Program-made: the position numbers and the translations under genes
The notes under the pieces: model-generated
Seen by the model: only the letters and a program-made list of their open reading frames with translations
Databases searched by the model: none
What the model was told of the DNA's origin: nothing
Origin: Nanobdellota archaeon
GTDB lineage: Archaea > Nanobdellota > Nanobdellia > Pacearchaeales > GW2011-AR1
Direction of reading: 5' to 3'
Length of the DNA: 46,180 nt
Assembly: GCA_027858295.1 (NCBI GenBank)
Contig: JAQICZ010000010.1
Location: forward strand, 1-46,180
Part shown: positions 2,281 to 23,199 of the stretch, in pieces
Numbering within the stretch: position 1 is the first letter of the stretch
Layout of the letters: each line of letters opens with the position of its first letter

Positions 2281-3036
2281 ATGAGTAAAAAGGGGCAAGT
2301 TACTATTTTTGTAATCATAGGTATGATTATCGTAGTTGGTGGTCTAGCCATCTATATGTTGATAGGTTCTCCTACATCTTCTACTCTAGAAGTCGACGAG
2401 AATCCAAGATCTTTTATACAAAACTGTGTCGAAGATGATTTTTGGGAATTAATTGATAATGTCTCTTTAAATGGAGGAAGTAGAAGCCCAGAATTTTATC
2501 ATCCGTATTACGGGAACAATGTAGAGTTCTTATGTTATACAGATGAGTTTTATAAATCGTGTTCTCCTCGTCAGTTGTTTCTTCGTAGTCATATTGAAGA
2601 AGAACTACTTTTGGGAATAGATGATAAAGTTGAAAGTTGCCTAGATAATTTGGAATCAAGTTTAAGGGAAAAGGGGTATGTTGTTTCATCTGAAAGAAAT
2701 TCTCGTGCCGTAACAATTATACCAGAGAGAATGACTCTTAAAACAAATTATTCAATTTCTTTAAAGAAAGAAGAGGGCAAAACTTTTGACATTGATGAAA
2801 TCGTATTCTCCAGCAATATCTATACTCTAATATCAATCGCAAAACAATTAGTATATTGGGAGAGAATAGGATCTGAAATGGATACAATGCTTTTTATGCA
2901 GGCAAACTATCCAGTAACGGTCCATAAATATAGAGATTCAGATGACGTAAAAGTATATATATTGAAAGATGAAATTACTAGTGAAAAATTCCAATTTGCA
3001 ATAAGAAGTATGGCATATCCTGGAGGAGGAGCATAA
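2281..3036 (+). CDS. Pilin-like membrane-anchored surface protein (251 aa)
   Basis: The protein begins MSKKGQVTIFVIIGMIIVVG: a short basic leader, a KGQ site and a hydrophobic helix to about residue 28. This is the layout of archaeal class III (type IV pilin-like) signal peptides, which are cut by a prepilin peptidase before the Q. The rest is a soluble domain with six scattered Cys, suited to the cell exterior. It is the first gene of a block containing four more proteins with this type of N-terminus. The next gene starts 4 nt after the stop, so the two are probably cotranscribed. The family of the exterior domain is not recognised. Pilin class is inferred from the N-terminus only; a plain signal anchor is the alternative. 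Confidence 0.7.
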   Translation: MSKKGQVTIFVIIGMIIVVGGLAIYMLIGSPTSSTLEVDENPRSFIQNCVEDDFWELIDNVSLNGGSRSPEFYHPYYGNNVEFLCYTDEFYKSCSPRQLFLRSHIEEELLLGIDDKVESCLDNLESSLREKGYVVSSERNSRAVTIIPERMTLKTNYSISLKKEEGKTFDIDEIVFSSNIYTLISIAKQLVYWERIGSEMDTMLFMQANYPVTVHKYRDSDDVKVYILKDEITSEKFQFAIRSMAYPGGGA

Positions 3037-3040
3037 TAAA

Positions 3041-5416
3041 ATGAAAAAGATATTTCTTATATTTGCCTTATTAATTATACTTGTAGTCCCTGTACTTGCT
3101 CAAGAAGATTTCGTTTGTTGTAAAGAGGTGGGAGGTGATTGGTGTAGAAATGTTGAACAATCACAATGTTTAAGCACTCTTTCCAGTTATACTTCTTGTA
3201 GTTCTGTCCCAGAATGTAATATGGGAACGTGTATCTTATCAAACGGAGGAGAATGCCAAGCAGGTATCTCTCAAGTAGAATGTACTTCTAAAGATGGTTA
3301 TTGGGATCCTTCGCCAATGAAAGGTATTGAAGCCTGTCAACCTACTTGCTGTGTTATAGGGAATTTTGCAGACCTCCTTCTAAAGATAGAGTGTTCAAGA
3401 ATAGGTAAAGAAATGAACCTTAAACCAAAGTTCCTAAGCGGTTTTTCAACAAAAAAACAATGCCAGGAAGAATCTTTCCTAAAGTCAAGAGGGGCCTGTG
3501 TTGACCTTAGTGGTTCAGAAGGCATTGATTGTTTCCATACAACAAAAGAAGAATGTGATTCTTCAGGGAATAAATTCTATAGAGATTCACTTTGTACTGC
3601 TCCAGGGATTTCCGATTGTGCAATTCCATCAAAGCCTGAGACAATATGTGGTGGTCCAGGAGAAGAGGATATTTACTTTTTAGATACTTGTGGTAATGTT
3701 GCTAATAAAATGGCGACTTCTAGAGAGCAAAATGATGATTATTGGACAACCATGAAGGACGACTATAGTGATGGAGATTATTCAGGAGATTGTGATTTTA
3801 TGAGGAAAGGGACAAGGTGTAAGCCAGAGGGAAGTTCTCATAAATGTGTAGAAAGTGCAAGTTGTAAAAATGTTGATGATGGGTATGGAAATAAAATAGA
3901 TTACAATCACGGTGACAGATGGTGCTATAATGAGGGTGCTTTAACTGAAGATGTTCAATTGAATATTGATTTGAATGAAGATGAATTTATGTTAGAAAGG
4001 ACAAGGGTGGATTTAGAAAATGGTTATAGAGAATTAAACTTACCAGGAAGTCGTTATTACGTTATGCAATGTTATAATGGTGAAGTTATTCCTGTTCCTT
4101 GCGCTGACTTTAGAAATCAAGTATGTAAAGAAGGATTGTTAGAGGATGAAGTTACAGAAGATATCGCTCCCTACGCTGTCTGTGCAACAAACAGATATGC
4201 TGGTTGTATATATTCAGAAAACAAAACAGACTGTGAATCAAATGATAAGGATTGTAAATGGTTAGGATGGGGATATCGGTTTGACGGACAAACAATCCCC
4301 TATTATGGAATTTCTGAGAATCCAGATGGCAAAAAAGAAAGAGCGCAAAGAGACGAAGAGCAAGGATCCTGCGTTCCATTATATGCTCCAGGGATGGACT
4401 TCTGGAATTCATCAGAAGAAAATATGGCAGCCGATTCTGCATATTGTGGTTTAGCCTCTTATGTTGAAGATGCGGTTTTTGAGAGAAGTCTCGATTTAGT
4501 TGTAAATGATGGAATGACTTCAGAAGAATTATTCAGAGGGGAAATAAAAGAAATTACAAAGAGATGCTTTGAAGGAGCCTGCTTTGCAATTCCAGATTAT
4601 GGGCTTGCAGATAAAAATTTAGCACCGTACAGATACTTGGGCTCACCAAAGAATATAGAAGAAGTTCACGAAGGAATAGAAGAAATTAATTTAGAAACAA
4701 GTTATTTATCAGAAAGAAAAGGATATTATTGCCATAAAAAAAGGGATGAAAATGATACAAGAACAGGAAAGATTCGGACTAGTAATGTTAAATGTGCAGA
4801 AAATATTAAAAAGAGAAATCAAATACCAGTTTTCACAAATCACGGAGTTTGGGTTGATTTCTTGCAAGAAAGAGCAAGGTCTATGGGAGACTGTGGTTAC
4901 AAACAACCAGCATGGACATTAAAGTCAGGAGAAGACATATTTGGAAATCCAATGGTGGAAGTGTTGTCTGCAGATTATCAAAAACTAGATCAGGATATGC
5001 AAGTAACACAAGACCATAAAACAAAAAATATTTATGTCGCAGATACAAGATATGTCGAAGATTATAGATCAAGTGAAGTCTTTGAAAAAGAAGATGGCTC
5101 GGCCTATTATTGGAGAGATTATTCTTGGTGGAAAGCACTGCATAAAGATAAAGACACTGGAATTGAAGAAATACCAGATTTAGGAAATAAAAATACAGAA
5201 GACGACTTGTCTGAACAAGAAACCCAGAGAGGCTCTCAAAGAGGTACTTCGGATGGCCAAGATGATATTCCAGACTTTGGAGATTCTTCAGGAAGAAGAG
5301 ATACTGAAAGAGATGCTGCTACAGATGATGTAGTTAGGTTTGATGGTGAAAATCCTATAAGTAGCACATATTGTCAAGATTATGTTGGCCTTGTTAAGCC
5401 AGCGGGGTGCGAGTAG
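3041..5416 (+). CDS. Large Cys-rich secreted protein (791 aa)
   Basis: A Sec-type signal peptide (MKKIFLIFALLIILVVPVLA) precedes a long extracellular protein with roughly 50 Cys, many in CC or CxxxC contexts, implying heavy disulfide bonding. Repeated motifs of the kind C-x3-GG-x-C and ECxSxxG suggest several small cystine-rich modules in the first 300 residues. The last 100 residues are acidic, polar and low-complexity (runs rich in D, E, R, S, G), probably a flexible linker, and end in a short Cys-containing tail. There is no C-terminal membrane helix. The next gene begins 1 nt after its stop. No family is recognised. An adhesive or structural role with the neighbouring pilin-like proteins is inference. 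Confidence 0.75.
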   Translation: MKKIFLIFALLIILVVPVLAQEDFVCCKEVGGDWCRNVEQSQCLSTLSSYTSCSSVPECNMGTCILSNGGECQAGISQVECTSKDGYWDPSPMKGIEACQPTCCVIGNFADLLLKIECSRIGKEMNLKPKFLSGFSTKKQCQEESFLKSRGACVDLSGSEGIDCFHTTKEECDSSGNKFYRDSLCTAPGISDCAIPSKPETICGGPGEEDIYFLDTCGNVANKMATSREQNDDYWTTMKDDYSDGDYSGDCDFMRKGTRCKPEGSSHKCVESASCKNVDDGYGNKIDYNHGDRWCYNEGALTEDVQLNIDLNEDEFMLERTRVDLENGYRELNLPGSRYYVMQCYNGEVIPVPCADFRNQVCKEGLLEDEVTEDIAPYAVCATNRYAGCIYSENKTDCESNDKDCKWLGWGYRFDGQTIPYYGISENPDGKKERAQRDEEQGSCVPLYAPGMDFWNSSEENMAADSAYCGLASYVEDAVFERSLDLVVNDGMTSEELFRGEIKEITKRCFEGACFAIPDYGLADKNLAPYRYLGSPKNIEEVHEGIEEINLETSYLSERKGYYCHKKRDENDTRTGKIRTSNVKCAENIKKRNQIPVFTNHGVWVDFLQERARSMGDCGYKQPAWTLKSGEDIFGNPMVEVLSADYQKLDQDMQVTQDHKTKNIYVADTRYVEDYRSSEVFEKEDGSAYYWRDYSWWKALHKDKDTGIEEIPDLGNKNTEDDLSEQETQRGSQRGTSDGQDDIPDFGDSSGRRDTERDAATDDVVRFDGENPISSTYCQDYVGLVKPAGCE

Positions 5417-5417
5417 T

Positions 5418-7484
5418 ATGAATTCAAAAAATAAAACAATATTTCATGTAGTAAGTTTAGTCCTAAGCATATTTGCAATTGCATTTATGATAGGCGGAGA
5501 GATTGAAACGGTTGATGCTTTCGAGCCAGCTGTTTATAGTGTACAAAAAGTTGTAGAGAATATTGGTTTCTTCGAAAAATTGGTAAATCTAGGTGACGCT
5601 GGGAAAACTTCTAGGGCAGCAGCTAAGATTGCAAGGCAGGCTGCAAGGGCGGACTCTACTGGAGGATTCTTCTGGCAAGCTGTCGGTGACTTTATTCTTG
5701 GCCCAGTTTTAGGTGCCGCAGCAGGTGTCGCTCTAGGTATGGGGATTTATGCTTTTGCTTTTGGTGCTTCTAATAGAAATATCCAATCAGCCTGGGTGAC
5801 GGCAGCAATAGCTGGAGGATCTGGTGTTGTTGCAGGTTCGATTGCACTTTATGGGGGGGCTTTTTTAGCAATGGGGCCATTCGCGGCAGCCGCAGTAGTT
5901 GCATTAGTTATTTTTGGGGCAGTTCAATTATTTGTTCATAAAAATTATTCCAAAGAAACTTACAAATATCAAGTAGGTGTTTGGCAACCATCAACAGATG
6001 GAAGCTATTGTGAAAGATGTAATGATTTGAAATACGGTTGTTCAGAATATCAGTGTAAGTCATATGGTTTAACTTGCGAATTAATCAATGAAGCTTCTGA
6101 TGATCAGAGATGTATCCGAACAGACCCAACAGGATTTAATCCAACAGTTATAGAAATTAATGAATCAGATATAAATAATGATTACATCTTTGAATATGGT
6201 GAAAACGGAGTAACAATAACAAAGCCAAATGGTGATTGCCTCGATCCATTCAAGGGATTAGAGTTTTCAGTAAATACAAATATGCCATCACAATGTAGAT
6301 GGGGAGTAGAAAAGAAGCCAGGTTTTTCAGAATATCCCTATTTCGCAAATGGAGGAGCATCACATTTTGTAGAAAAACATAAGATTGTTCTTCTAGGTTC
6401 AGCTTATCCATCAGCTTATCAATTACAATCAAATGATTATGTTATTAAAGATGGGACTTTCGAAAATAACATATATCTCTCGTGTATGTCCTACTACGGT
6501 GAAGAATCTCCATTTGACTTTAGTGTTCAATTCTGTATTGACGACGGACCTGATACCTCTTCTCCAGTAATCGAATCAGTAAATCCACTAAATGGAGCAT
6601 TTTTAAGATCAGGAACAACGCAAATTCCAGTAACAATAACCACAGATGAAGATGCAAATTGTAAATGGGATTATTTAGATAAAAATTATAAAGAAATGAA
6701 AAACAGCTTTTCTCACTGCACAGTTTCAGAAAATGCAGACCCTGTTTTAGCCTGTCATAAGGCAATCTTAGATAGTCTAGAAAAAGGCAAGAATAAATTT
6801 TACTTCAGATGTGCAGATAAGCCATTCTTCAATAAAGAAGCAACACCTCAAGAAAGAGTAATGGAGAATGCCCAATCTTACATTTATACCTTAGAAGTTT
6901 CGGATAATTTAAGGATAGATGAAATTTTGATAAATAACAATGGTTCAGGTTCAACTTTCAAGTCAAACGCTCCAATCGATGTAACTTTCGACGTTAGTAC
7001 AAGTATCGGGGCAGATGGGTCTGGACAAGCCATTTGTTATTCAAAGAAAACTGGCAGTTCCGCACCATATATTCAATTCTTGAAGGATGATATGTCGGAA
7101 TATTCTAGCATTAATTCCGGAACTGTTTCTGGCCAAGGTAGAGGCGTTCATAAATACGATATTATGTGCTGTGATAAAGCCCATAACTGCATATCAGAAA
7201 ATATAAACTTCACAGTAGAAATAGATGATACGCCTCCGATGATTGCAAGAATCTATAATGAAGGCGGAGAAATGAAAGTGATTACAACAGAAAGTTCAGA
7301 ATGTGTATATTCCTTAAGTGAACGCATGTTTACATTTGAAGACGGAATCCCTTTTTCAACTTACGACGGCTTGGAGCACACAACAGGTTGGGACCCAGAC
7401 TCAGAATTATTCATACTTTGTAAAGATGAATATGATAACGTCCCAACAGAATGTCAAATAATCGCAAGAGCTTCAGATATGTAA
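5418..7484 (+). CDS. Large membrane surface protein with Cys-rich and Ig-like exterior (688 aa)
   Basis: Residues 8-28 form an N-terminal hydrophobic segment. Two or three Gly/Ala-rich membrane helices follow at about residues 90-180 (GAAAGVALGMGIYAFAFG and the stretch ending VVALVIFGAVQLFV). The remainder is exterior: a Cys-rich part (CERCNDLKYGCSEYQC), then repeated beta-type domains. The segment near TSSPVIESVNPLNGAFL and the segment near DDTPPMIARIYNEGG read like Ig-like or cadherin-like folds with paired Cys. The ATG at 5418 sits 1 nt after the preceding stop codon; an upstream in-frame ATG at 5382 would overlap the previous gene by 35 nt and is less likely. It probably works with the preceding Cys-rich protein as a membrane-bound partner. 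Confidence 0.7.
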   Translation: MNSKNKTIFHVVSLVLSIFAIAFMIGGEIETVDAFEPAVYSVQKVVENIGFFEKLVNLGDAGKTSRAAAKIARQAARADSTGGFFWQAVGDFILGPVLGAAAGVALGMGIYAFAFGASNRNIQSAWVTAAIAGGSGVVAGSIALYGGAFLAMGPFAAAAVVALVIFGAVQLFVHKNYSKETYKYQVGVWQPSTDGSYCERCNDLKYGCSEYQCKSYGLTCELINEASDDQRCIRTDPTGFNPTVIEINESDINNDYIFEYGENGVTITKPNGDCLDPFKGLEFSVNTNMPSQCRWGVEKKPGFSEYPYFANGGASHFVEKHKIVLLGSAYPSAYQLQSNDYVIKDGTFENNIYLSCMSYYGEESPFDFSVQFCIDDGPDTSSPVIESVNPLNGAFLRSGTTQIPVTITTDEDANCKWDYLDKNYKEMKNSFSHCTVSENADPVLACHKAILDSLEKGKNKFYFRCADKPFFNKEATPQERVMENAQSYIYTLEVSDNLRIDEILINNNGSGSTFKSNAPIDVTFDVSTSIGADGSGQAICYSKKTGSSAPYIQFLKDDMSEYSSINSGTVSGQGRGVHKYDIMCCDKAHNCISENINFTVEIDDTPPMIARIYNEGGEMKVITTESSECVYSLSERMFTFEDGIPFSTYDGLEHTTGWDPDSELFILCKDEYDNVPTECQIIARASDM

Positions 7485-7493
7485 GTGTTTCGC

Positions 7494-7535
7494 AGACCGT
7501 TGACCGTTGACTGTAGACTGTTAACCGTAAACCGC
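7494..7535. repeat. Heptamer minisatellite (6 units)
   Basis: Six consecutive heptamers of the type AGACCGT, TGACCGT, TGACTGT, AGACTGT, TAACCGT, AAACCGC begin 9 bp after the stop codon of the preceding gene. The same degenerate consensus occurs in at least eight other places in the window. Confidence 0.8.
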
Positions 7536-8158
7536 AAGGAAAATATTTGAATGTCTTAAAACTACTCTGTTAAAAACACGCAATTCCCGAAGCCGAAGGC
7601 TAACATTAATTTAGTTTTTCTTAATATCAATCTGTTTTCAAAACCACCTTCACAAGCTCAATAATGAAGGCAATTATATTATCCACTGCGTTGGCAATCA
7701 TAAACTGTTCTCTCCTAATCGCTCAATTGCTGTTATCCTCAAACCAGCTATGCTTCACATTAATTTAATTGGCCTTTATACCAATCTGCCTTCTGCCTCT
7801 CTAAAAAAACACCTTCGCAAGCTCAGTAATAAAATCATAATATTATTCGCGGAGTTGCGGGCATAAATTACTCTACTCAAATAAAACAATTCTAGTACCA
7901 TCAAAATCCTCCAACAGTCCAGGCCCCCAGCGGGACGCGACTAACTCAACTTGCCTTAAGTAAATTAAATATATTAATCTGCTTTCTCAAAAAGCATCAA
8001 TTCATTAAATCCCAAAAATCCTCAAACCATCTATGCCCTCACACTAATCCAATCTGCCTTCTGCCTAATCCCTGCCCCAATCCCTGCCTTAATCCGTGAG
8101 CTAAAATTGCCCCTGCTTTCTGCCCTCAGCCCCCAACCCCCAGCTAGATTTGCGTAGC
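7536..8158. other. Non-coding region with repeat fragments
   Basis: No gene is seen. Two R1 copies lie at about 7671-7710 (TTATCCACTGCGTTGG) and 7831-7870 (TTATTCGCGGAGTTGCGGGC). A copy of the CCCAGCGG...CAACTTGCCTTAAG repeat, related to the IS target, is at about 7926-7980. A pyrimidine-rich stretch with the recurring TAATCCGTGAGCTAAAATTG phrase is at 8090-8120. This gap separates the first three surface genes from the remaining five. Confidence 0.55.
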
Positions 8159-8161
8159 AAA

Positions 8162-8170
8162 TCTTATAAG
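8162..8170 (+). promoter_or_regulatory. TATA box of the second surface-gene operon
   Basis: TCTTATAAG lies 22-30 nt before the ATG at 8192. This fixes the start at MEKRGQMK rather than at the upstream in-frame ATG at 8150, which would lie before the promoter. Confidence 0.6.
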
Positions 8171-8191
8171 CAAAATCCCCCTCTTTCTTTC

Positions 8192-8626
8192 ATGGAAAAG
8201 AGAGGTCAGATGAAAATGTCATTTGGTATGATTATGTCAATTATTCTAGTAATTATGTTCTTGGTTTTCGCTTTCTTCGCAATAAAAAAATTCCTAGGCT
8301 TCCAAGAAACAGTAAAGACAAAACAATTCTTAGATAACCTTCAAGGTGAAGTTGATAAAATGTATAAAAGTACTTATGGCTCTAAGCAGGTCTCTTATTC
8401 TGCTCCTTCAAACATGGAAAAATTATGTTTTTTCGATATGGATAAAAATGTTCTTCTAGAACTAAAAGGCGGTCCTTATCAAAAGAACATAGACCACCTA
8501 AATATGGAAGCAATCCTAAATGGAAAAGATCAATTGTGTGCAACGGTTGAAAATGGCAAAGTGGCGCTCATTCTAGAAAAAAAATATGGTGAAAATTTAG
8601 TCACTATCAGATTTCCAAATGAATAA
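8192..8626 (+). CDS. Small pilin-like protein (144 aa)
   Basis: It begins MEKRGQMKMSFGMIMSIILV, with a basic leader, RGQ cleavage-site pattern and a hydrophobic helix to about residue 31. The remaining 110 residues are soluble, Lys-rich and contain only two Cys. Length and layout fit a minor pilin or pseudopilin. Its stop overlaps the start of the AlbA-domain regulator by 8 nt, so translation of the two is probably coupled. The exterior domain is not recognised. Confidence 0.7.
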   Translation: MEKRGQMKMSFGMIMSIILVIMFLVFAFFAIKKFLGFQETVKTKQFLDNLQGEVDKMYKSTYGSKQVSYSAPSNMEKLCFFDMDKNVLLELKGGPYQKNIDHLNMEAILNGKDQLCATVENGKVALILEKKYGENLVTIRFPNE

Positions 8627-9935
8627 AGAAGAATATCAGTTGATATCTTCACAAGGTGAGGGACAATATATTGAATTTAAAGAGAATTTTAATCCATCAA
8701 TAATTAAAGAAATTGTCGCATTCGCAAATTCAGGCGGAGGGAAAATATTTTTAGGTATAGATGATAATGGTCGGAGAAAAGGATTTAAGATAACAAATAA
8801 ATTAAAATCTGAGATTCAAGATATAGCAAGAAACTGTGATCCTCCAGTGAACTTGAGTCTGGAAAGTAGTAGTGATATTTTAATTATTAATGTAAATAAT
8901 GGGGAAAATAAACCCCATTCTTGTAAATATGGATTTTATTTTAGAAATGGTGCAAATTCTCAAAAAATGAATAGAGACGAAATTATTGACCTTATTTCAA
9001 AAGAGGGAAAAATAAATTTTGATGAAAGAGTCTGTTCTGATTTTCAATGGGAAGACTTTGATAGCGAGAAATTTGATAATTATTTGAATTTGTCAAAAAT
9101 TTCAAAATCCTTAGATGTAAAAGACACACTAAGAAATTTAAATGTATTAAAAAGCAGTGGTCTTACTAATGCTGGAGTTCTATTCTTTTCAAAAACGCCC
9201 TCGAAATATATAGGGACTTCAAAAGTAAGATGCATCCATTTTAAGGGCAATGAAAGAGTCGATATTTTAGATAAAAAAGAATTAGACAAGGGAATTGTCT
9301 CAAATATAGAATTTGCAATAAATTATTTAGAAGAAAGGATTGCTATAGAATTTAAAATAGAAAACGGCATAAGGCAAGAGTTCCCAGAATATCAAAAAAA
9401 TGCATACAGGGAACTGATAGTTAATGCAATAGCTCATAGAGATTATCTAAAATCGGCAGAAGTAGCAATAGAAAAATTGAAAGATTCAATAAATATAACT
9501 AATCCAGGTAGCCTATTATTTAATGAGAAAAATTTTGGAAAAGTTAGTATCTATAGAAATAGATTGATTGCAGACCTTCTTTCAAGAACAACTCATATGG
9601 AAAAAGCAGGTACTGGAATAAGTAGAGTAAAAAGTTATTGCAAAGACAATGATAATGAAGTAATATTTGAATTTAATGACTTCTTCTTTTCAAAAATTTA
9701 TAGTAATAAATTAAAGGAGAAAAGTTCGGAGAAAAGTTCGGAGAAAAGTTCGGAGAAAAGTTCGGAGAAAATAATAAATTTAATAAAAAACAATCCAAAG
9801 ATTACAATATTAGAGATTTCAAAAAGAATAGGCTTAACAACAAGGGCTGTTGAAAAAAATCTTTCAAAATTAAAAGAAAAGAATTTAATAATAAGAATTG
9901 GTTCGGATAGAGAAGGAGAATGGAAAATATTATGA
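8619..9935 (+). CDS. AlbA-domain (Schlafen/RecG-like) ATP-binding regulator with winged helix
   Basis: The N-terminus (residues 10-120) has the AlbA_2/Schlafen AAA_4 pattern: YIEFKENF, then IVAFANSGGGKIFLGIDD. The middle carries the HATPase-type C-terminal domain of this family, with NAIAHRDYLKSAEVAIE and AGTGISRVKSYC. A short linker of four EKSS repeats joins it to a C-terminal helix-turn-helix (ILEISKRIGLTTRAVEKNLSKL). Such COG2865-type proteins are putative DNA-binding regulators. The gene overlaps the upstream pilin-like gene by 8 nt and the downstream one by 4 nt (ATGA), so it is embedded in the operon. A regulatory role for the pilin block is inference; the cytosolic DNA-binding role follows from the domains. 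Confidence 0.82.
   Translation: MNKEEYQLISSQGEGQYIEFKENFNPSIIKEIVAFANSGGGKIFLGIDDNGRRKGFKITNKLKSEIQDIARNCDPPVNLSLESSSDILIINVNNGENKPHSCKYGFYFRNGANSQKMNRDEIIDLISKEGKINFDERVCSDFQWEDFDSEKFDNYLNLSKISKSLDVKDTLRNLNVLKSSGLTNAGVLFFSKTPSKYIGTSKVRCIHFKGNERVDILDKKELDKGIVSNIEFAINYLEERIAIEFKIENGIRQEFPEYQKNAYRELIVNAIAHRDYLKSAEVAIEKLKDSINITNPGSLLFNEKNFGKVSIYRNRLIADLLSRTTHMEKAGTGISRVKSYCKDNDNEVIFEFNDFFFSKIYSNKLKEKSSEKSSEKSSEKSSEKIINLIKNNPKITILEISKRIGLTTRAVEKNLSKLKEKNLIIRIGSDREGEWKIL
9717..9771 (+). repeat. 12-bp in-frame tandem repeat in the regulator linker
   Basis: GAGAAAAGTTCG is repeated four times exactly (9717-9764), followed by a 7-bp partial copy. It encodes EKSS units. The identical copies suggest slippage, and copy-number changes would keep the frame because the unit is a multiple of three. 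Confidence 0.9.
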
Positions 9936-10852
9936 AGAACAAAAAAGGTTTTATGGACATGTCCTTTTCCTGGATTTTCGCATTAATAGTAGGCGCGATT
10001 ATTCTTTTTGGGGCAGTCTATGGGGTTAGTAAATTTACAAGCATTGCAGAGAAGAAGCAGAGTGCAACAAGTGCTGCAGAACTTGGAACAATTTTGGATG
10101 CCCTAGAATCCGGGCAAGAATCAGCAAAAACAGTAGCTTTATTCTTCCCCGTAGGAACAAGAATCTCAAACAAATGTAATTCCTTCGGCACCTTTGGTAC
10201 ACAAGGAGTCTCTGTAGAAGAATACGTCAATGGTGATTGGTCGACCTCTGACTTGACAGTATCTTGGGAAAATAAATATATTTTTTCAGGAAATATTCAG
10301 GGTAAAACTTTCTACGCTTTTACAAAACCTTTTGATTTTCCCTTCAAAGTTGCAAATTTAATGTATCTAACATCTGCTGATGATAAATACTGTTTCAAAG
10401 ACGCCCCACGAAATGTAAGAAAAGAATTAAAGGATTTAGGTCAAGCAAATCTTCTAATCAGCGATTGTGATGAAGCTACAATTAACGTATGCTTCACTAG
10501 TTCTTCAGATTGTGATGTTGTAGTTTATTATAATGACAATTATTTGCAAAAAAAAGGAGTAATTTATCCTTTTGAAGGAGACGCTCTAATGTATGCCGCA
10601 ATCTTCTCAAATGAAGACGCTTATGAATGTGGACTCTTAAGATTAACAAAAAGAACAGCTATGTTGGCAAGACTTTATTCAGAGAAGTCAGTTTTTTTGA
10701 TAAATACTTGTGATTCAAATTTAATACCTGATTTAGAAAAATTCAATTCAGAATTATCAAATTATGAAGATTCTTCAGATTTATCATCCTTAGCTTATAC
10801 AAAAACAACACTGGACTCCCTAAATAAATTCTCGAGGTGTAAGCAATGGTAA
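9932..10852 (+). CDS. Pilin-like surface protein (306 aa)
   Basis: It begins MKNKKGFMDMSFSWIFALIV, with a basic leader, a KKG site and a helix to about residue 32; the MDMSF phrase parallels MKMSF in the 144-aa neighbour. The exterior part of about 270 residues has several Cys (CDEATINVCF, DAYECGL, LINTCDS) that could form disulfides. The ATG at 9932 overlaps the upstream stop (ATGA); the in-frame ATG at 9920 lies inside that gene. The last codons overlap the next start by 7 nt. The exterior family is not recognised. Confidence 0.7.
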   Translation: MKNKKGFMDMSFSWIFALIVGAIILFGAVYGVSKFTSIAEKKQSATSAAELGTILDALESGQESAKTVALFFPVGTRISNKCNSFGTFGTQGVSVEEYVNGDWSTSDLTVSWENKYIFSGNIQGKTFYAFTKPFDFPFKVANLMYLTSADDKYCFKDAPRNVRKELKDLGQANLLISDCDEATINVCFTSSSDCDVVVYYNDNYLQKKGVIYPFEGDALMYAAIFSNEDAYECGLLRLTKRTAMLARLYSEKSVFLINTCDSNLIPDLEKFNSELSNYEDSSDLSSLAYTKTTLDSLNKFSRCKQW

Positions 10853-11400
10853 ATAAGTCAGGTCAAATGAAGATTCAGCAAACAGCTTTTCTAATAATAG
10901 CTTTAACTTTATTCTTTGTTCTGGTTGGTCTTTTTGTTCTAAGTATGACCTTTTCCGGAATACAGCAAGATAAAGCAAAAGTAGAAGAAAAAGAAGCCCT
11001 TCTCTTAGTTTCAAGGCTGGCAAACTCTGCAGAATTTACTTGTGGAGAGTCTTCTGGTAGGGCGAAATCGGACTGTGTGGATTTTGATAAAGTGATGGTG
11101 TTAAAAGACAATATTGAAAACTATTCAAAACTCTGGGGAGTTAAAGGTATATCAATTATAAAAACTCATCCTGTTGCAGAAGGAATCTGCGAAGAATTAA
11201 ATAGCTCCAGCTGTAGATGTACAAGAGAAAATTATCCAGATTGTGGATTTCTAGAAATCTACCCAAATAATGGCCTAGGGAATGATGCTTCAACCTTCAT
11301 TCTATTATGTAGAAAACAAAATGACGATGGCTATGCTTACGACAAATGTGAAGTGGCAAGATTAGTAGTAAAGTTTTCAGAAGGAGAGACTCAAAAATGA
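10846..11400 (+). CDS. Pilin-like surface protein (184 aa)
   Basis: It begins MVNKSGQMKIQQTAFLIIAL, with an SGQ cleavage-type site and a hydrophobic helix to about residue 34. The exterior domain carries eight Cys, including CRCTRENYPDCGF, and probably folds around disulfides. The gene overlaps both neighbours (7 nt upstream, 4-nt ATGA downstream), so it is part of a translationally coupled chain. The family is not recognised. Confidence 0.7.
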   Translation: MVNKSGQMKIQQTAFLIIALTLFFVLVGLFVLSMTFSGIQQDKAKVEEKEALLLVSRLANSAEFTCGESSGRAKSDCVDFDKVMVLKDNIENYSKLWGVKGISIIKTHPVAEGICEELNSSSCRCTRENYPDCGFLEIYPNNGLGNDASTFILLCRKQNDDGYAYDKCEVARLVVKFSEGETQK

Positions 11401-12032
11401 AACCCATAAGCCGTCTACTGTCAACCATCAACCGTAAACTGTCAACCGTAAACTGTCAACCGTCTACTGTCCACCGTTCACCGTCAACGGTCCACTGTCA
11501 ACCGTCTACCGCCAACCGTCAACGGTCCACCGTACCTCGCTCAAAGCGAGCCCAGTCAGAAATGATAGGCTTCGCCCTAATTATTATAATCGTTGCAGTC
11601 TTAATAGTAGTCTTCATATCATTATCTATGAACGAAAACGAAGACGAGTCTCTAAATAGCTTCGAGCTCGAAAGTTTTGTCCAGGCCACCTTGGAATATA
11701 CAACAAATTGTACAGCAAGAGGAGACTATATACCACTGAGAAAAGTAATCTTCAGATGTATAGAAAACCAAACTTGCTCTAGTGGTGAGGACCCCTGTAT
11801 CATATTAGAAAATGATATTCAGGCTATAGTAGAAAACTCCTGGCAAGCTTGTCCCGAATGTCGAATCCGTGGTTACGAATTTAATATTACCCAAGCAAAA
11901 GAAGGTTCCCCAATACCAGATGATATTTACCATTTAGCAGCTGGAAACGTGACAATCTTCAGTAAAACAGCAGTTCAAAACTTCGACTCTGGGGTAGATG
12001 TTCACTTTAAAGCTTATTATGCAAGTCAATAA
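11397..12032 (+). CDS. Pilin-like protein with a repeat-encoded N-terminal extension (211 aa)
   Basis: The pilin-type core is KRAQSEMIGFALIIIIVAVL, with a RAQ site before a hydrophobic helix as in many archaeal pilins. It is followed by an acidic exterior domain with a C-x2-C pair (CPECR) and other Cys. In this gene the core is preceded by about 50 residues made from an in-frame heptamer array. They read as seven-residue units such as PSTVHRS, PSTVHCQ and PSTANRQ. The ATG overlaps the previous stop (ATGA), as at other junctions in the operon, so the array seems to have expanded between the native start codon and the leader. Whether such a long leader is still processed is unknown. Confidence 0.65.
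   Translation: MKPISRLLSTINRKLSTVNCQPSTVHRSPSTVHCQPSTANRQRSTVPRSKRAQSEMIGFALIIIIVAVLIVVFISLSMNENEDESLNSFELESFVQATLEYTTNCTARGDYIPLRKVIFRCIENQTCSSGEDPCIILENDIQAIVENSWQACPECRIRGYEFNITQAKEGSPIPDDIYHLAAGNVTIFSKTAVQNFDSGVDVHFKAYYASQ
11411..11536 (+). repeat. Coding heptamer minisatellite (18 units)
   Basis: Eighteen consecutive heptamers (for example CCGTCTA, CTGTCAA, CCATCAA, CCGTAAA, CGGTCCA) occupy exactly 126 bp. Three heptamers give seven codons, so the translation repeats every seven residues and the frame is kept. The units match the non-coding arrays at 7494, 13587, 14102 and 20433. Confidence 0.9.
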
Positions 12033-13180: not shown

Positions 13181-13586
13181 TCTTTGAGTCTGGGGCTTCC
13201 TTTCCCGAGGACTCCAATTTATTGGTTTACTTCAAAAAACTAAATTACCTCTATGGGTTTATCTTTAGGTCGTCTAATTACTTCACTTCGTTCAGCTATT
13301 AGGGCAAATTAAATTATCGCTGCTGGCGCGGGCATAAACTGTTGGAGGCTGGTGGTGGTTTTCAATCAGTGCATGCGGTGGCTTTCATTGATTTTGAAAG
13401 TTGTGTAAAGGGAGCGTAGAATATAATGTCTTTAGGCTACATTGTGATTAAAACTTGCAATAATATCCTTCAAACGACTTCGGCCCTCGAACACCTAACT
13501 AAACTCCCCAACGGAGGTTGATTTAGCCCTGCTGAAAGCGGGCAAAATCAATCGTGAGTGCAATATCAAATCATTAGAATTATTTA
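13181..13586. other. Non-coding region with an F2 structured repeat
   Basis: No gene is seen. A TCGCTGCTGGCGCGGGCATA repeat is at about 13317-13340. An F2 copy occupies about 13470-13575: CAAACGACTTCGGCCC, then a hairpin. In the hairpin, TTGATTT (13518-13524) pairs with AAATCAA (13545-13551), GCCC (13526-13529) with GGGC (13540-13543), T13530 is unpaired, and GCT pairs with AGC around a GAA loop. Confidence 0.6.
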
Positions 13587-13727
13587 ACAGTCAACGCTCA
13601 ACAATCAACGGTTTACGGTCTACAGTTTACGGTCATCGTTTCACAGTCAACGCTCAACGCTCAACGGTCCACAGTCAACGGTTTACGGTCAACAGTAAAA
13701 CGGTTCATGGTCCACAGTCAACAGTTC
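13587..13727. repeat. Heptamer minisatellite (20 units) abutting a stop codon
   Basis: About twenty heptamers of the type ACAGTCA, ACGCTCA, ACGGTTT, ACGGTCA and one octamer fill this interval. The array ends at the base before the stop codon of the minus-strand winged-helix gene. Confidence 0.88.
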
Positions 13728-14084
13728 TTAAATCTTAAGATGTATAATCAAATGATCAATTATAATAACCGGTCGATGTCTGGTCCGATTCTCCGACTTC
13801 TCAGCAATTAGTTCAATAATCCCAAATCTAGTAAGTAGCTTAATGTCATCACTCACAGCCTTAAACGGCCGACCCAGAACCTTAGCCAATTCGTAAATTG
13901 ACCTAGGTTTCTTGTATTTGATAGTATCCATCATCCGAGCCTTCTCCTTAGACAACAACTTCCTAAAAGAGTCAAGTCCATCAAAATCATAAGCATCCTT
14001 GTCAATCTTCTTCTCATTTCCAAATAAATTAAACGAACCACCTTCTTCCCTAATCGTAACCTCACGAGTTTTTGTTCTTACCAT
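13728..14084 (-). CDS. Winged-helix DNA-binding protein (HVO_A0114-like)
   Basis: A 118-residue protein. Residues 40-100 read as a winged helix: FRKLLSKEKARMMDTIKY, then PRSIYELAKVLGRPFKAVSD and LTRFGIIELI. The pattern resembles HVO_A0114-type predicted regulators, some of which pair with toxins. The ATG at 14084 is chosen because the frame upstream of it is made of heptamer repeats; a start at 14132 would add 16 repeat-derived residues. The gene is flanked on both sides by heptamer arrays. It lies opposite to the downstream S-layer gene and could regulate it, but this is inference. Confidence 0.7.
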   Translation of the reverse strand: MVRTKTREVTIREEGGSFNLFGNEKKIDKDAYDFDGLDSFRKLLSKEKARMMDTIKYKKPRSIYELAKVLGRPFKAVSDDIKLLTRFGIIELIAEKSENRTRHRPVIIIDHLIIHLKI

Positions 14085-14101
14085 GTTTCTTATCTTTTTG
14101 T

Positions 14102-14206
14102 AAACCGTCAACCGTTTACCGTAAACTGTCAACCATCAACTGTCTACCGTTTTCCGTTTACTGTCAACTGATAACTGATAACTGATAACTGACAACTGAC
14201 AACTGT
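14102..14206. repeat. Heptamer minisatellite (15 units)
   Basis: Fifteen heptamers run from AAACCGT and CAACCGT types into exact TAACTGA and CAACTGA units. The array ends about 360 bp before the first S-layer start codon; a similar array ends about 375 bp before the second S-layer gene. Confidence 0.88.
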
Positions 14207-14312
14207 GTAAGCCCTCAGGTTTACACCATATCTATCATTTACGAATATATATACCTTCCCCCGAACCCATTCAAATTTTTCAAGCTGTCATTTCCCAAAA
14301 ATTACACCAAAA

Positions 14313-14566
14313 GCTTTTTAAAAGAAACCCTGTATACAGCACCAAATCGCATAGAAACCAAAAGGCAGCCACGTAAGCTTTTTAAACTGAAATCTCATAA
14401 TGATACTATCTTAATGGGGGATTAAAATGTACATTTGCCACAAACGAATGTAATTTCAAATTAACCTTAAGATATCAACCGATTAGTTCCCCTATAACTA
14501 TTTGGTTACCCGGTGTCTATCAAGACATCAATGCATAGAAGCATAAAGGGGGATAAAAAATAAAAA
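14313..14566 (+). promoter_or_regulatory. S-layer gene 1 promoter and long conserved leader
   Basis: Two TATA-like boxes, CTTTTTAAAAG (14313-14323) and GCTTTTTAAACTG (about 14377-14389), imply a 5-prime leader of about 150-230 nt. Near the gene the leader carries TAGTTCCCCTATAACTATTT followed by GGTTA, then a hairpin (GGTGTC pairing with GACATC), then GGGGGATAAAAAATAAAAA ahead of the ATG. The same blocks precede the second S-layer gene, with a different stem sequence in the hairpin. GGGGGAT is a plausible ribosome-binding site. Confidence 0.6.
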
Positions 14567-16930
14567 ATGAAATTCAAAAAAATCACAGCAATCGCAGGTA
14601 GTCTGCTAATGACTGGATTAACTGTTGCAGCTGCTAGTGCTGCGGCTTTCCCTGCCCCATTCGTTAAGAGTGGTACAGCAGACGTGGCTATTGTTTACGG
14701 AGCTAATGCTGATTTAGTAGCATCAAACAACGTACACACAGCTTTAGGAAAGTTCGTAACTTCTACTGGTGCTGTAACTGTTGAAGGTGGTGAAGCTTTT
14801 ACTTTAGAGAAATCCTCTGACAAGTTTAACTTCGGTGACGCGTTAGATACAATTTACCCATCATTAGATGATGGTGACTTGGAATCTGCTCTAGCTGATG
14901 GAACTTATGATGATGGATCTATTGATGAAGACTTCTCACAAGAAATTACTTTAAGCACTAGCACCCACACTCTGGAACTTTTCCATGATGAGGATGTTAA
15001 CGGTGATGCTCCTACAATTGGTTTCAAAATCGATAAAGATGATGTAGTTTTGAAGTACACAATGGACTTTGATGGTAGCGATGTGAATGTTTCTGAAATG
15101 GCTGAGACTGATATGCCTCTCTTAGGTTCTAATTACTATGTACTTAGTGCTGATGAGGATACTATCGAGTTATTAGATACTGCTGAAAAAACTGCTTTAA
15201 ATCGTGGTGAAACTGCTACTGTTGCAGGTAAAGCTATTACTGTTGAGTACATTGGTACTAATAGTGTTAAATTTACTGTTGATGGTGAATCTACAGATTC
15301 TCTTGAAGAAAACGAACAATATGAGTTAGATGATGGTTCATACATTATCCCAACTGATATTATGACTTCTGCAAAAGATTCTGTAACTGACTCAGTAGAA
15401 TTTTCAATCGGTTCAGGAAAAATCGTTATTTCTCAAACTGAAGATAACGTTCAAGTTAACGATGAAGATGTTGATGGATTAGAAGCTAATTATGTAATTG
15501 ATTCTGATATTATCGATTCTGATATTATCGATTCTTTAACTTTAACTTGGGTAGCTGACGATGATATGTTCTTATATGAAGGTGAAACTTTAGTTATGCC
15601 TTTATTCGAGAATGTTAAAGTATTCTACGGAGGTCTAGACTTCCCAACTGATTCAGAAACTATCTCAATGAACAATGCAGACACTTTCACTATTGAAATG
15701 GATAACTATGATTTCCCAGTAATGTGGACTGATGGTGAAACCTCACCGACAATTAAGTCAGGTGAAGAATATTACGAATTAGTATTAGCATTAGAAAATA
15801 TTACTTATGCTGCTAAAGGTTATGACATTTCAGATGTGGCAAATGCAACATCTGGGTGGTCAAACATTACTTTAAGTAACGGTACTGTTGTAGATATTAA
15901 TGACCAGAATGAAACTGCAGCTCTTGCAGAAACTTATCTGGCTAATGTTCTTCCTGTACAAGACGGTGAAAGATTCATAGCTACAAAAATTACAGATGAT
16001 TTATCAGATGTAGAAACTATGTACTATGAAATTGACACTATTGACGCAGGAGATGCAGATTTGGTTCTTAAGTTAGAAGATTTAATCGAAGACAATGATT
16101 TGGACTTCGGTGATGTTGCTGACGATAATGACCGAGGAGATATCAATGTAGTTTTAGAAGAGTTTAGTGTAGATGAAGATACAGCGTATCTAAGTTTTAC
16201 AGACGCTACTGACTTCAACAAATTAGTTTCAGAAACTGGTATGGTAATTACATTACCTACAGTTACTGCAATTGAAGACTTGGATGGAAATACAGTAGAA
16301 TTTAACTTCCACGAAGCTAATGAAGATGGTGACCTAGTTACAACTGGAACTGACTTCACTGTAGAAGCTTCTTTGAACGGAGATAAGGATGTTATCTACG
16401 TTACAGACGCAGGTACTACAGACATGGACGACGACGATGACCTATACGTAGGTTACGTTGCTTCAGAATTAGCCTCTAAGACAACTTTGGACAAATCAGG
16501 AGATGAAAACGACTTCGAAGTAGAATACTACGGAGAAGAAGTTACTGCTGACGTTCAAGTTATCATGGGTGGTGAAGTATCAACTGCTGCCGCTGCTGAT
16601 TTCTTACCAGTTAAAGCTAGTGAAATTGACAATGTTAAGTCTAAGAACTTAGTAATTGTTGGTGGATCATGTGTTAACGCTGCTGCCGAAACTCTATTAG
16701 GTGGTGCATTATGTGGAGAAGACTTCACAGCTGCAACAGGAGTAGGTGCAGGTCAATTTGTAATTCAAGAATTCGTAGACGGATTTGCCCCTGGTAAAAC
16801 TGCTCTATTAGTTGCTGGTTACGAACAAGCTGACACTGTAAATGCTGTAACTTATTTAACAAAGACAGCTGATGTTGATACATCAGAAAAAATTGTTAAA
16901 GGTATGGAATCTGTAATCGATTTAGCATAA
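14567..16930 (+). CDS. S-layer protein, copy 1 (787 aa)
   Basis: A Sec signal peptide (MKFKKITAIAGSLLMTGLTV, cut after the ASA near residue 26) precedes an acidic, Cys-poor surface protein. The N-terminal segment FPAPFVKSGTADVAIVYGAN and the C-terminal SKNLVIVGGSCVN and LLVAGYEQADTVNAVTYL are typical of archaeal S-layer proteins (PF05123/PF05124 type). High Asp, Glu and Thr content and regular beta patterns fit a lattice protein. The first 200 nt are almost identical to the copy at 20938 and the last 350 nt are closely similar, while the centre differs. A strong leader, a proper terminator and optimised codons suggest high expression. Confidence 0.88.
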   Translation: MKFKKITAIAGSLLMTGLTVAAASAAAFPAPFVKSGTADVAIVYGANADLVASNNVHTALGKFVTSTGAVTVEGGEAFTLEKSSDKFNFGDALDTIYPSLDDGDLESALADGTYDDGSIDEDFSQEITLSTSTHTLELFHDEDVNGDAPTIGFKIDKDDVVLKYTMDFDGSDVNVSEMAETDMPLLGSNYYVLSADEDTIELLDTAEKTALNRGETATVAGKAITVEYIGTNSVKFTVDGESTDSLEENEQYELDDGSYIIPTDIMTSAKDSVTDSVEFSIGSGKIVISQTEDNVQVNDEDVDGLEANYVIDSDIIDSDIIDSLTLTWVADDDMFLYEGETLVMPLFENVKVFYGGLDFPTDSETISMNNADTFTIEMDNYDFPVMWTDGETSPTIKSGEEYYELVLALENITYAAKGYDISDVANATSGWSNITLSNGTVVDINDQNETAALAETYLANVLPVQDGERFIATKITDDLSDVETMYYEIDTIDAGDADLVLKLEDLIEDNDLDFGDVADDNDRGDINVVLEEFSVDEDTAYLSFTDATDFNKLVSETGMVITLPTVTAIEDLDGNTVEFNFHEANEDGDLVTTGTDFTVEASLNGDKDVIYVTDAGTTDMDDDDDLYVGYVASELASKTTLDKSGDENDFEVEYYGEEVTADVQVIMGGEVSTAAAADFLPVKASEIDNVKSKNLVIVGGSCVNAAAETLLGGALCGEDFTAATGVGAGQFVIQEFVDGFAPGKTALLVAGYEQADTVNAVTYLTKTADVDTSEKIVKGMESVIDLA

Positions 16931-17005
16931 CTTCCGGGAAAGTCTAAAAATTTATTTTTTTTATTTTTTTTGTTTTTTCTCCCCAATTTATTGGGGGAGA
17001 TAAGG
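16931..17005 (+). terminator. S-layer gene 1 terminator region
   Basis: Right after the stop codon is ACTTCCGGGAAAGT, also present after the second S-layer gene. A T-rich tract follows, then a strong hairpin CTCCCCAA-TTTA-TTGGGGGAG. T-tracts terminate archaeal transcription; the hairpin may protect the 3-prime end. Confidence 0.7.
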
Positions 17006-20432: not shown

Positions 20433-20563
20433 TTCCGTCCACCGTCCCCGTCAATCGTAGACCGTAGACCGTTTGGCGCAAACCGTTAACTGTCGACTGT
20501 AAACCGATAACTGACAACCGATAACTGACAACCGTAAACCGTCCCCTGACAACTGACTACTGC
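20433..20563. repeat. Heptamer minisatellite (about 19 units)
   Basis: Units of the types ACCGTAG, ACTGTCG, ACCGATA, ACTGACA and ACCGTAA follow one another with period 7. The array lies at nearly the same distance before the second S-layer gene as the 14102-14206 array does before the first. Confidence 0.85.
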
Positions 20564-20653
20564 AACCTTCGGTTGCATGTCTATTCAAAAAAAACCACTA
20601 CCCATTTTTTCCCTTTCTTCAACTCCGTAGTTTCTAAAGAATAGTACCGAAAA

Positions 20654-20937: not shown

Positions 20938-23199
20938 ATGAAATTTAAAAAAATCACAGCAATCGCAGGTAGTCTGCTGATGACTGGATTGACAATTGCA
21001 GCTGCTAGTGCTGCGGCTTTCCCTGCCCCATTCGTTAAGAGTGGTACAGCAGACGTAGCTGTTGTATACGGAGCTAATGCTGATTTAGTAGCATCAAACA
21101 ACGTACACACAGCTTTAGGAAAGTTCGTAACATCTACAGGCGCAATGTCAGTAACAGGTGGTGAGAGTTTTAAGTTAGAGAAATCTTCGGACAAGTTTAA
21201 TTTCCAAGATGGATTAGACGCGGTATACACAAGTCTAGATAAAGATGAAATGTCTTTTTTGGCTGACGGAACTTACGACGACGGAGACGTTGACGAGGAT
21301 TACGAGCAATCAATCACTTTGGGATCTCAAACTTTAGAATTATTTACTGATAACGATTACAACAATGATGCACCAACAGTTGGTTTTCATTGGACTAATG
21401 CAGACCCAGTATTAAATTATACACTGGACCTAGATAATGAAGTACTTTTTTCAGATATGGTTGAGACTGATATGCCTTTGCTTGGAGCAAGTTATTATGT
21501 ACTTGCTGCATCTGCAACTCAGATTGATATCCTAGATTCTGCTGAGTCACAGATGTTAGCTCAGGGTGAAACTGTAACTGTTACATTGGATGGAGAGGCT
21601 TATACTCTTTCAGTTGATGTATATAGTGATTTTACAGCAAAATTCACAGTTAATGGAGAATTTTCAGAAAAGTTATCTGAAGGAGGATATGACGAAGTAT
21701 CAACAGATGTTTACGTTGTAGCCAAAGAAATTAATTATGCTGCAAAAGAAACTGGAATTAGTGATGTTCAATTTGCCCTTGGAAAAGGAAAGATTGAGTT
21801 AATCGATGGAAATGAAGCTGAGTTAAATGGTGATAAGATTGATGGTCTAGAAGTTGCTCTTACAGAAGGTAATAATGCAAGTTACTTTGAAACAGCAACT
21901 TTAATGTGGAAGTCAGATAGAGACACTTTCTTAACAGAAGATGATTCTCTAATGATGCCTGGTTTTGAAAAAATCAGTTTATCATTTGGAGGTTTAAATA
22001 TGCCTTCAGATTCAGAGATAATATCTGTTGACAACGGAGAAACTATGACTTTAAGTATGGATAACTATGATTTACCTTTTGTTTGGTACAACGGTACTGC
22101 AGCAATATTAGGTGAAGAAGATGCTGTCTTAGTGACTAATACATCAACCTTAGATAACAATACTTGGACTTCTCCTGCTAGAACAGAAAACAGTACAGGT
22201 GGTTTAGCTTTAGTAGAAGGTAATAGATTTATTGTAACTAATCTTGGTACAGACTTAACTGATGTTGAAACTATGTATTATGAAGTTACTACTGTTGAAA
22301 ATGATACTGATATCCTAGTTGAATTAGAAGACCTAATAGGTACCAATGATTTAACTTTTGATAAATTAGAAGCAAATGATAGAGGAGTAGTTACTGCTAC
22401 ATTGGATGCTATAAATGGAACCGTAGCAGGTGCTACTGCTTACATAACTTTTTCAACTACTAGTAATACTATCTATCATAACAAAGTAGTTTCAGATAAA
22501 GGGATGGTAATTACTTTACCAGCCTTGACTGATGGAGTTATCTCTGACATTGATGCAGGATTCCCTCTGAATTTTTCAGAAGCAGATAAAGATGACGACC
22601 TAACACAAGGTCGTGAGTTTTTTGCTACTATTAGTAATACAACTAATGAGAGATTACATGTATCTACACATAACTTAACAGCTTATGATGAAGAAGAATC
22701 TACCGATAATTTTATCGGCTATGTTCCTTCAAATTTAGCTTCTAAGCTTACATTTGATACTTCCGCCGATGAAAATGATTTCTCAATCGAATATTTCGGA
22801 GAAGAAGTCATGGCTGATGTGTATGTTGTTGTAGGAGACGCTACAATGACTACTGCTACTGCTGATGAATTCTTACCAGTTAAAGCAAGTGAAATTGATA
22901 ATGTTAAGAGTAAAAACTTAGTAATTGTTGGTGGATCATGTGTTAATACTGCTGCTGCTACTTTATTAGGTGGTTCGTTATGTGGAGAAGACTTCACAGC
23001 CGCTACAGGAGTAGGTAATGGCCAGTTTGTAATTGAGGAATATATGGACGTTTTTGCTACAGGCAAAACTGCTCTATTAGTTGCTGGTTACGAACAAGCT
23101 GACACTGTAAATGCTGTAACTTATTTGACTCAAATGGAAGATGTTGATACATCAGAAAAAATGGTCATGGGGTTAGAATCAGTAATAGGATTAGGATAA
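20938..23199 (+). CDS. S-layer protein, copy 2 (753 aa)
   Basis: Same architecture as the gene at 14567: signal peptide MKFKKITAIAGSLLMTGLTI, then FPAPFVKSGTADVAVVYGAN and a C-terminal lattice domain with SKNLVIVGGSCVN and LLVAGYEQADTVNAVTYL. The central 500-550 residues are related but strongly divergent in sequence and indels. They contain more Asn-x-Ser/Thr sites (for example NNTW, NGT, NTT), so glycosylation may differ. Conserved leader and terminator indicate both copies are expressed genes rather than a gene and a silent relic. Alternating or simultaneous use of two lattices is possible but not shown by sequence. Confidence 0.88.
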   Translation: MKFKKITAIAGSLLMTGLTIAAASAAAFPAPFVKSGTADVAVVYGANADLVASNNVHTALGKFVTSTGAMSVTGGESFKLEKSSDKFNFQDGLDAVYTSLDKDEMSFLADGTYDDGDVDEDYEQSITLGSQTLELFTDNDYNNDAPTVGFHWTNADPVLNYTLDLDNEVLFSDMVETDMPLLGASYYVLAASATQIDILDSAESQMLAQGETVTVTLDGEAYTLSVDVYSDFTAKFTVNGEFSEKLSEGGYDEVSTDVYVVAKEINYAAKETGISDVQFALGKGKIELIDGNEAELNGDKIDGLEVALTEGNNASYFETATLMWKSDRDTFLTEDDSLMMPGFEKISLSFGGLNMPSDSEIISVDNGETMTLSMDNYDLPFVWYNGTAAILGEEDAVLVTNTSTLDNNTWTSPARTENSTGGLALVEGNRFIVTNLGTDLTDVETMYYEVTTVENDTDILVELEDLIGTNDLTFDKLEANDRGVVTATLDAINGTVAGATAYITFSTTSNTIYHNKVVSDKGMVITLPALTDGVISDIDAGFPLNFSEADKDDDLTQGREFFATISNTTNERLHVSTHNLTAYDEEESTDNFIGYVPSNLASKLTFDTSADENDFSIEYFGEEVMADVYVVVGDATMTTATADEFLPVKASEIDNVKSKNLVIVGGSCVNTAAATLLGGSLCGEDFTAATGVGNGQFVIEEYMDVFATGKTALLVAGYEQADTVNAVTYLTQMEDVDTSEKMVMGLESVIGLG

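Follow-up and report, generated by a model that had tools for sequence, protein, structure and literature searches.

A conserved cluster of pilin-like and cysteine-rich surface protein genes in Candidatus Pacearchaeota

Related systems and the gene cluster

Bacterial type IVa pili carry a tip complex of four minor pilins that is capped by PilC/PilY1, and among these minor pilins only the capping subunit is without Glu5 (PMC10191384). For archaea, Makarova et al. (2016) surveyed type IV pilus systems, several of which combine pilins with large Cys-rich, S-layer or adhesin proteins; their census also contained a nanoarchaeal ATPase for which no cognate pilins could be identified (PMC4858521). 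Pilin-rich islands of DPANN archaea were noted by Makarova et al. (2019), as was a DPANN-specific secreted family, cls.004306 / NEQ255, which is encoded beside S-layer-like genes and found in 43 of 67 genomes (PMC6393860). Hamm et al. (2024) described two DPANN pilus loci with a CpaF ATPase, TadC and coiled-coil proteins, for which a function in host contact was proposed (PMC11291902). For the question of how DPANN archaea grip their hosts, the cluster reported here, with genes designated A to G, provides a defined and testable candidate. No description of it was found in the open-access papers searched, and it is a hitherto unnamed, strongly conserved gene set of these tiny, probably host-dependent archaea.

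The cluster is located on contig 32 of a 64-contig genome of 1.35 Mb that is about 88% complete; the whole contig, 46,180 bases long, was analysed and is called the window below. Gene calling followed a simple longest-ORF rule, and start positions are uncertain. The ORF listing gave seven genes on the forward strand within positions 2281-12032, as had a preliminary description of this DNA, and the assignment to a DPANN archaeon made there also held, the cluster belonging to Candidatus Pacearchaeota. The genes of the cluster and its context are as follows.

Gene A, 2281..3036, + strand: 251 aa; class III leader, predicted membrane-tethered globular protein; partner of B/C and duplicated with them
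Gene B, 3041..5416, + strand: 791 aa; secreted, Cys-rich, Sec-type signal; candidate displayed adhesin
Gene C, 5418..7484 (ATG at 5418; the ORF opens at 5382), + strand: 688 aa; signal peptide, Cys-rich motif, Ig-like domains
Gene D, 8192..8626, + strand: 144 aa; pilin-like, K-R-G/Q leader, N-terminal half paralogous to E
Schlafen/AlbA_2 gene, 8619..9935, + strand: 438 aa; Schlafen/AlbA_2, HATPase_c_4 and winged-helix parts (PF04326, E 9e-21); not part of the system
Gene E, 9920..10852 (second start at 9932), + strand: 306-310 aa; pilin-like, the most widespread of the set
Gene F, 10846..11400, + strand: 184 aa; pilin-like, G/QMKIQQ leader
Gene G, 11397..12032, + strand: 211 aa; pilin-like, K-R-A/QSEMIGF leader
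Regulator gene, 13728..14084, - strand: HVO_A0114-type winged-helix regulator (PF25212, E 1.8e-15); context gene
S-layer gene, 14567..16930, + strand: S-layer protein (PF05124, E 6.2e-7, above the curated cut-off); context gene

Profile scans of all seven proteins A to G yielded no significant match in Pfam, NCBIfam or the PDB. Overlaps in the window amount to 8 nt between D and the Schlafen/AlbA_2 gene, 7 nt between E and F and 4 nt between F and G, while the Schlafen/AlbA_2 gene and E overlap by 16 nt if E starts at 9920 or by 4 nt if it starts at 9932. The range of 4-8 nt given earlier for the last five genes is corrected accordingly. The conclusion drawn from it, that these genes are made together, agrees with an operon-like overlap that recurs in relatives, where E and F overlap in 55 of 69 adjacent pairs and F and G in 52 of 69; the Schlafen/AlbA_2 gene had, however, gone unmentioned. 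This gene stands between D and E in the present genome only, and since it is missing from the D-E junction of relatives it was rejected as a component of the system. Within its coding sequence, at 9716-9771, 4.7 copies of a perfect 12-bp repeat, GGAGAAAAGTTC, give rise to SSEK repeats.

Several further features of the contig were observed. Minisatellites of 7 bp (AACCGTC/AACTGAC type) are dispersed at 7495-7528, 11411-11533, 13583-13726, 14099-14205 and 20481-20567, mostly in intergenic positions; the one at 11411-11533 inflates the leader of G, which is about 50 residues long and contains Ser-Thr-Val repeats. A protein encoded on contig 55 (L087:7649-8197) begins with a repeat-like leader resembling that of G. 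The S-layer gene at 14567-16930 has a closely similar second copy (also PF05124) 4 kb away, at 20938-23199, and with this pair the coat protein may be switched. A DDE transposase (PF13751) at 101-1648 occupies the end of the contig; in relatives this position, upstream of A, is that of PCNA.

Leaders, predicted structures and pilus machinery

The leaders, with the predicted cleavage site marked by a slash, read KKG/QVTIF in A, KRG/QMKMSF in D, KKG/FMDMSF in E, KSG/QMKIQQ in F and KRA/QSEMIGF in G. A home-made rule for class III-like leaders (a basic residue, then Gly, Ala or Ser, then an uncharged helix) was applied to 81 loci, that is, the window and 80 named loci, and was satisfied by 91% of the A, 86% of the D, 91% of the E, 92% of the F and 93% of the G members. 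The same rule selected only 35 of 595 unlabelled neighbouring genes (6%), so that the five basic leaders preceding a hydrophobic helix, originally recognised in a single genome, are more than a chance feature. Among members in which the site could be located, glutamine occupies position +1 in 45 of 45 A, 62 of 62 F, 60 of 60 G and 47 of 53 D proteins. As judged from these sequences, class III processing of the leaders of A, D, E, F and G is plausible, as had been suggested, with Gln+1 almost invariant in A, D, F and G. Both Gln+1 and Glu+5 are conserved in the pilins of M. maripaludis (PMC3875500), and in the present genome a pilin-like gene adjoining the contig 48 ATPase likewise has both residues (KKGQVWIET). 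In contrast, no glutamate at +5 was found in any A, D, E, F or G member of the family loci (for E by inspection of the alignment); the usual residue at this position is Phe in A, Ser in D, Gln in F and Val in G. In many distant F proteins a glutamate is visible at +6. A pilin gene next to the contig 48 ATPase matches Pilin_N, whereas A to G match no pilin family of Pfam or NCBIfam.

A long uninterrupted N-terminal helix is a hallmark of pilins. The AlphaFold2 model of E, built on 79 sequences (pLDDT 92, pTM 0.85), has a single continuous helix of 49 residues (16-64), followed by a mixed ectodomain with conserved cysteines. In a Foldseek search of the PDB, none of the 50 matches listed for E had a probability >0.10, and the ectodomain matched no pilin or pseudopilin, although a kinship limited to the ectodomain could be hidden here because a long helix can lower whole-chain scores; a search against viral models gave no confident match either. 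The model of A (52 sequences, pLDDT 90) has a helix at residues 3-28, a flexible linker at 29-38 (pLDDT <50) and then a globular alpha/beta domain, for which Foldseek returned no confident fold match in the PDB and no pilin. With its short membrane helix, linker and globular domain, A is by the shape of its model not a pilin, but a tethered globular protein. Of the five leader proteins that had been called pilin-like, four, D to G, thus remain candidates. An hhalign comparison (97.7%) shows homology between D and E across some 87 columns, and the best PDB profile match of D is a type IV pilin helix, which at E 0.11 is not significant; sequence profile searches with F and G gave no significant PDB match. 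The pilin identity of D to G is only partly supported. Prediction bears out the pilin-like helix that had been expected in E but not in A, and the earlier remark that the exterior domains resemble no known pilin agrees with the E ectodomain, for which no solved fold matches.

Within the window no ATPase, TadC or prepilin peptidase gene was detected, which accords with the ATPase and peptidase genes having previously been reported as lacking nearby. The proposed search of the remaining genome located this machinery on other contigs: the one detected prepilin peptidase (PilD) on contig 55, secretion ATPases on contigs 48 and 55, and two TadC-like platform proteins, both on contig 48. Lack of any prepilin peptidase in the genome, which the preliminary description had named as a refuting observation, is thereby not what was found. 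A motor for the cluster would consequently have to act in trans, as it likewise does for bacterial minor-pilin operons. Several more class III-like proteins are encoded on contig 55 as well, and beside its ATPase, the second of the genome, lie genes for two large secreted proteins that contain mucin-2 WxxW domains (L087:11465-16860). Across the phylum, a prepilin peptidase is present in 353 of 371 genomes; set against E, which is detected in 272 of the 371, its presence is not discriminating and the co-occurrence is uninformative. In one family of small, near-complete genomes (f56: G236, G261, G366, G408) the prepilin peptidase match is absent or weak and no E match is listed, and peptidase and E may have been lost jointly there.

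The two large proteins are rich in cysteine, as first described, with 42 Cys in B and 21 in C. Beyond its Sec-type signal B has no membrane span, and its alignment contains about 40 invariant positions, mostly cysteines. C consists of a signal helix, a Gly/Ala-rich hydrophobic segment, a Cys-rich motif and Ig-like domains, and 22 of 48 C members contain a Big_13 Ig-like domain. Profile searches gave no PDB match and no credible Pfam match for B and no significant PDB match for C, and otherwise only weak chance matches for members of the B/C families. A PilC/PilY1 domain was absent from all B and C members examined with Pfam and PDB profiles, and no SLT domain was found in them by Pfam scan. 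A reading of B and C as multihaem conductors was rejected, since B has no CXXCH motif and C almost none.

Distribution and gene order in relatives

In the family to which the window belongs, B was detected in 125 of 138 genomes (81 of 87 genera) and E in 124 of 138 (79 of 87 genera). The 272 genomes with E across the phylum were identified with a 23-row profile, the sensitive profile searches being confined to genomes of this phylum; outside the order, match strength is weak to moderate (E 1e-22 to 1e-3), and many of the matches span just part of the profile. The seven-gene set is present in nearly every sampled genome of one Pacearchaeota family, with a four-gene core spread across the phylum. 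The named loci belong to Candidatus Pacearchaeota or Nanoarchaeota MAGs, apart from a few records with other titles; they share genomes with the unnamed loci, and the two sets are not independent samples. A scan of all bacterial and archaeal species with patterns suited to close relatives returned DPANN-like records only, with the exception of one titled Patescibacteria, which contains the full DPANN gene order.

The preliminary description had proposed gene order in relatives as a check, and it proved to be strongly conserved. Across 30 regions and 80 named loci, contigs of sufficient length show the order A-B-C-D-E-F-G again, apart from some insertions and losses of genes. A convergent winged-helix gene lies 3' of G in 65 of 82 loci scanned, and an S-layer gene follows the cluster in 60 of 82. 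Upstream, PCNA was identified by Pfam in one region, and a gene for 241-242 aa occupies the same place in many others. Of 20 distant loci, chosen mostly among the stronger E-profile matches, 16 have the complete D-E-F-G series in its usual order, and 12 have the four genes directly adjacent; these distant sets are preceded by relatives of A and B/C or by giant secreted proteins of another kind, 450-2200 aa in length. The order of A to G is therefore conserved in Pacearchaeota, while D-E-F-G in company with giant secreted proteins persists class-wide.

One distant class member (L193) encodes, at 13291-16935, a secreted SLT lytic transglycosylase protein of 1214 aa after D-E-F-G and an A-like protein of 651 aa. 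Its target is presumably bacterial, the archaeon itself being without peptidoglycan. In the window's family, SLT-domain proteins are encoded on other contigs or well away from the cluster on its contig, and the genome studied here encodes an SLT domain (contig 53, 19849-20277) in an open frame of 1732 aa, likewise away from it. A peptidoglycan-directed function was not adopted, since the family SLT proteins lie apart from the cluster and the L193 arrangement is found at one distant locus only.

The large proteins vary more than the rest of the cluster. Median pairwise identity, computed over the 28 loci in which each gene occurs exactly once, is 38% for B and 34% for C, compared with 40-48% for A, D, E, F and G, and length variation is greatest in B and C among the seven. 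D, E, F and G never occur twice in the 80 named loci, whereas A is doubled in 4 and C in 15. Relatives encode 13 fusions of B and C (1,100-1,435 aa) behind a second A, and in the genome studied here contig 58 carries another A-B-C set. A-B-C thus behaves as a module separate from D-G, in which B and C diverge faster and are exchanged. Judged by their sequences, the fast divergence and length spread of B and C form the pattern expected of variable proteins displayed on a constant platform.

Interpretation and comparison with known systems

The explanation we prefer, to which we give slightly less than an even chance, is that D to G form a minor-pilin-like priming or tip complex displaying B and C as exchangeable adhesins, and that it works like the bacterial module of minor pilins and PilY1. 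D, E, F and G would be inserted into the membrane with their class III leaders, clipped by the single prepilin peptidase detected in the genome and joined in one fixed four-protein complex. This complex would prime or cap a type 4 filament or a short pseudopilus driven by the ATPase/TadC motor encoded elsewhere. The tethered A and the large, disulfide-rich, Ig-bearing, Sec-exported B and C would make up a separate, duplicable and fast-changing module, which the complex may display through the S-layer for contact with a host or neighbour cell. If this is right, host specificity would be readable from the B/C place of each genome. The leaders, the 49-residue helix of E, the D-E paralogy, the constant D-G order, the single-copy state of D-G as opposed to the duplicated A and C, the faster change of B and C, the Ig-like domains of C and the machinery found in the genome all point this way; the lack of Glu5, of a pilin fold in E, of a PilC/PilY1 match and of a motor gene in the cluster argues against it. 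Host attachment, raised in the preliminary description, is something we infer, and the S-layer neighbourhood equally allows a role in the envelope; the constancy of this neighbour suggests such a role at least as strongly as it does a pilus.

The main rival is an S-layer-anchored envelope scaffold, in which D to G, derived from pilins, would cross the pseudoperiplasm as anchors and hold both B/C and the S-layer on the membrane in the manner of ArlF/ArlG. It is somewhat unlikely in our estimate. Most Pacearchaeota loci, and several of the distant loci, have an S-layer gene behind the cluster, the missing Glu5 and the missing ATPase of the locus mean that polymerisation need not be assumed, A with its short membrane helix and flexible linker is itself anchor-like, and ArlF/ArlG are an example of pilin-derived proteins that bridge membrane and S-layer (PMC8667602). 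Yet four distinct conserved pilin-like subunits, one with a helix as long as that of E, exceed the needs of an anchor, several distant loci (such as L192 and L195-L200) have no S-layer-sized gene directly after the cluster, and E does not match the archaellin beta-sandwich of ArlF/G.

A pseudopilus for secretion or DNA uptake, of T2SS or Com type, would turn D to G into a short piston for the export or retraction of cargo, B and C being the exported effectors. T2SS and Com likewise have four minor pilins plus a major one (PMC10191384), and a secreted lytic transglycosylase is encoded right behind D-G in L193. This is nevertheless improbable, given that B and C have Sec-type signals of their own and need no dedicated export route, that the cluster genes include no recognisable DNA-uptake or secretin family, and that the SLT-domain proteins of the window's family are located away from the cluster. 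Still further down the scale, and very improbable, is the assumption of no common apparatus at all, under which unrelated class III surface proteins would share an operon through the conserved neighbourhood from PCNA to the S-layer gene. The conservation of the PCNA, HTH and S-layer neighbours speaks for it; D-E-F-G, however, remain together in other neighbourhoods, with overlaps that are typically 4-7 nt, and their order survives the insertion of unrelated genes among them.

The preferred tip-complex reading can be extended: D-E-F-G may be a DPANN counterpart of the bacterial minor-pilin/PilY1 complex that is class-wide, lacks Glu5 and acquired its shape independently. The swappable giant B/C proteins, including the Gly/Ala-rich hydrophobic segment of C, would then recognise the host and possibly contact membranes, determining the cell on which a lineage lives. 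In this extended form the proposal is rather unlikely.

Among described systems, the two loci of Hamm et al. (PMC11291902) come from the same archaea and also combine class III proteins with large surface proteins, but the A-G cluster has no CpaF or TadC and lies on a contig other than those carrying the ATPase/TadC loci of its genome. It differs from the type IV pilus systems of Makarova et al. (2016) in that none of A to G matches a pilin family. The cls.004306 / NEQ255 family was compared by description only and may or may not be one of the seven. The giant lytic-transglycosylase proteins of fam00969 (Castelle et al. 2021, PMC8204110) are similar in being giant extracellular proteins of Pacearchaeota and Woesearchaeota, and an SLT protein follows D-G in L193; in the window's family, however, the SLT proteins are elsewhere in the genomes and the B/C members have no SLT domain. 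The stator proteins ArlF/ArlG (PMC8667602) are pilin-derived and tied to the S-layer, as D to G may be, but they are two proteins within the archaellum operon, with a beta-sandwich not found in E. From the minor pilins HIJK with PilC/PilY1 of T4aP and T2SS, A to G are set apart by the lack of sequence homology, by the absence of Glu5 from all four of D to G, by an E ectodomain unlike that of pilins and by B and C having no PilC/PilY1 domain. As the likeness is one of organisation, and does not extend to Glu5, pilin fold or PilY1 homology, the cluster is said to work like this module and is not assigned to it formally. In gene organisation the two agree: four small proteins with class III leaders are encoded together with large exported non-pilins, apart from the motor.
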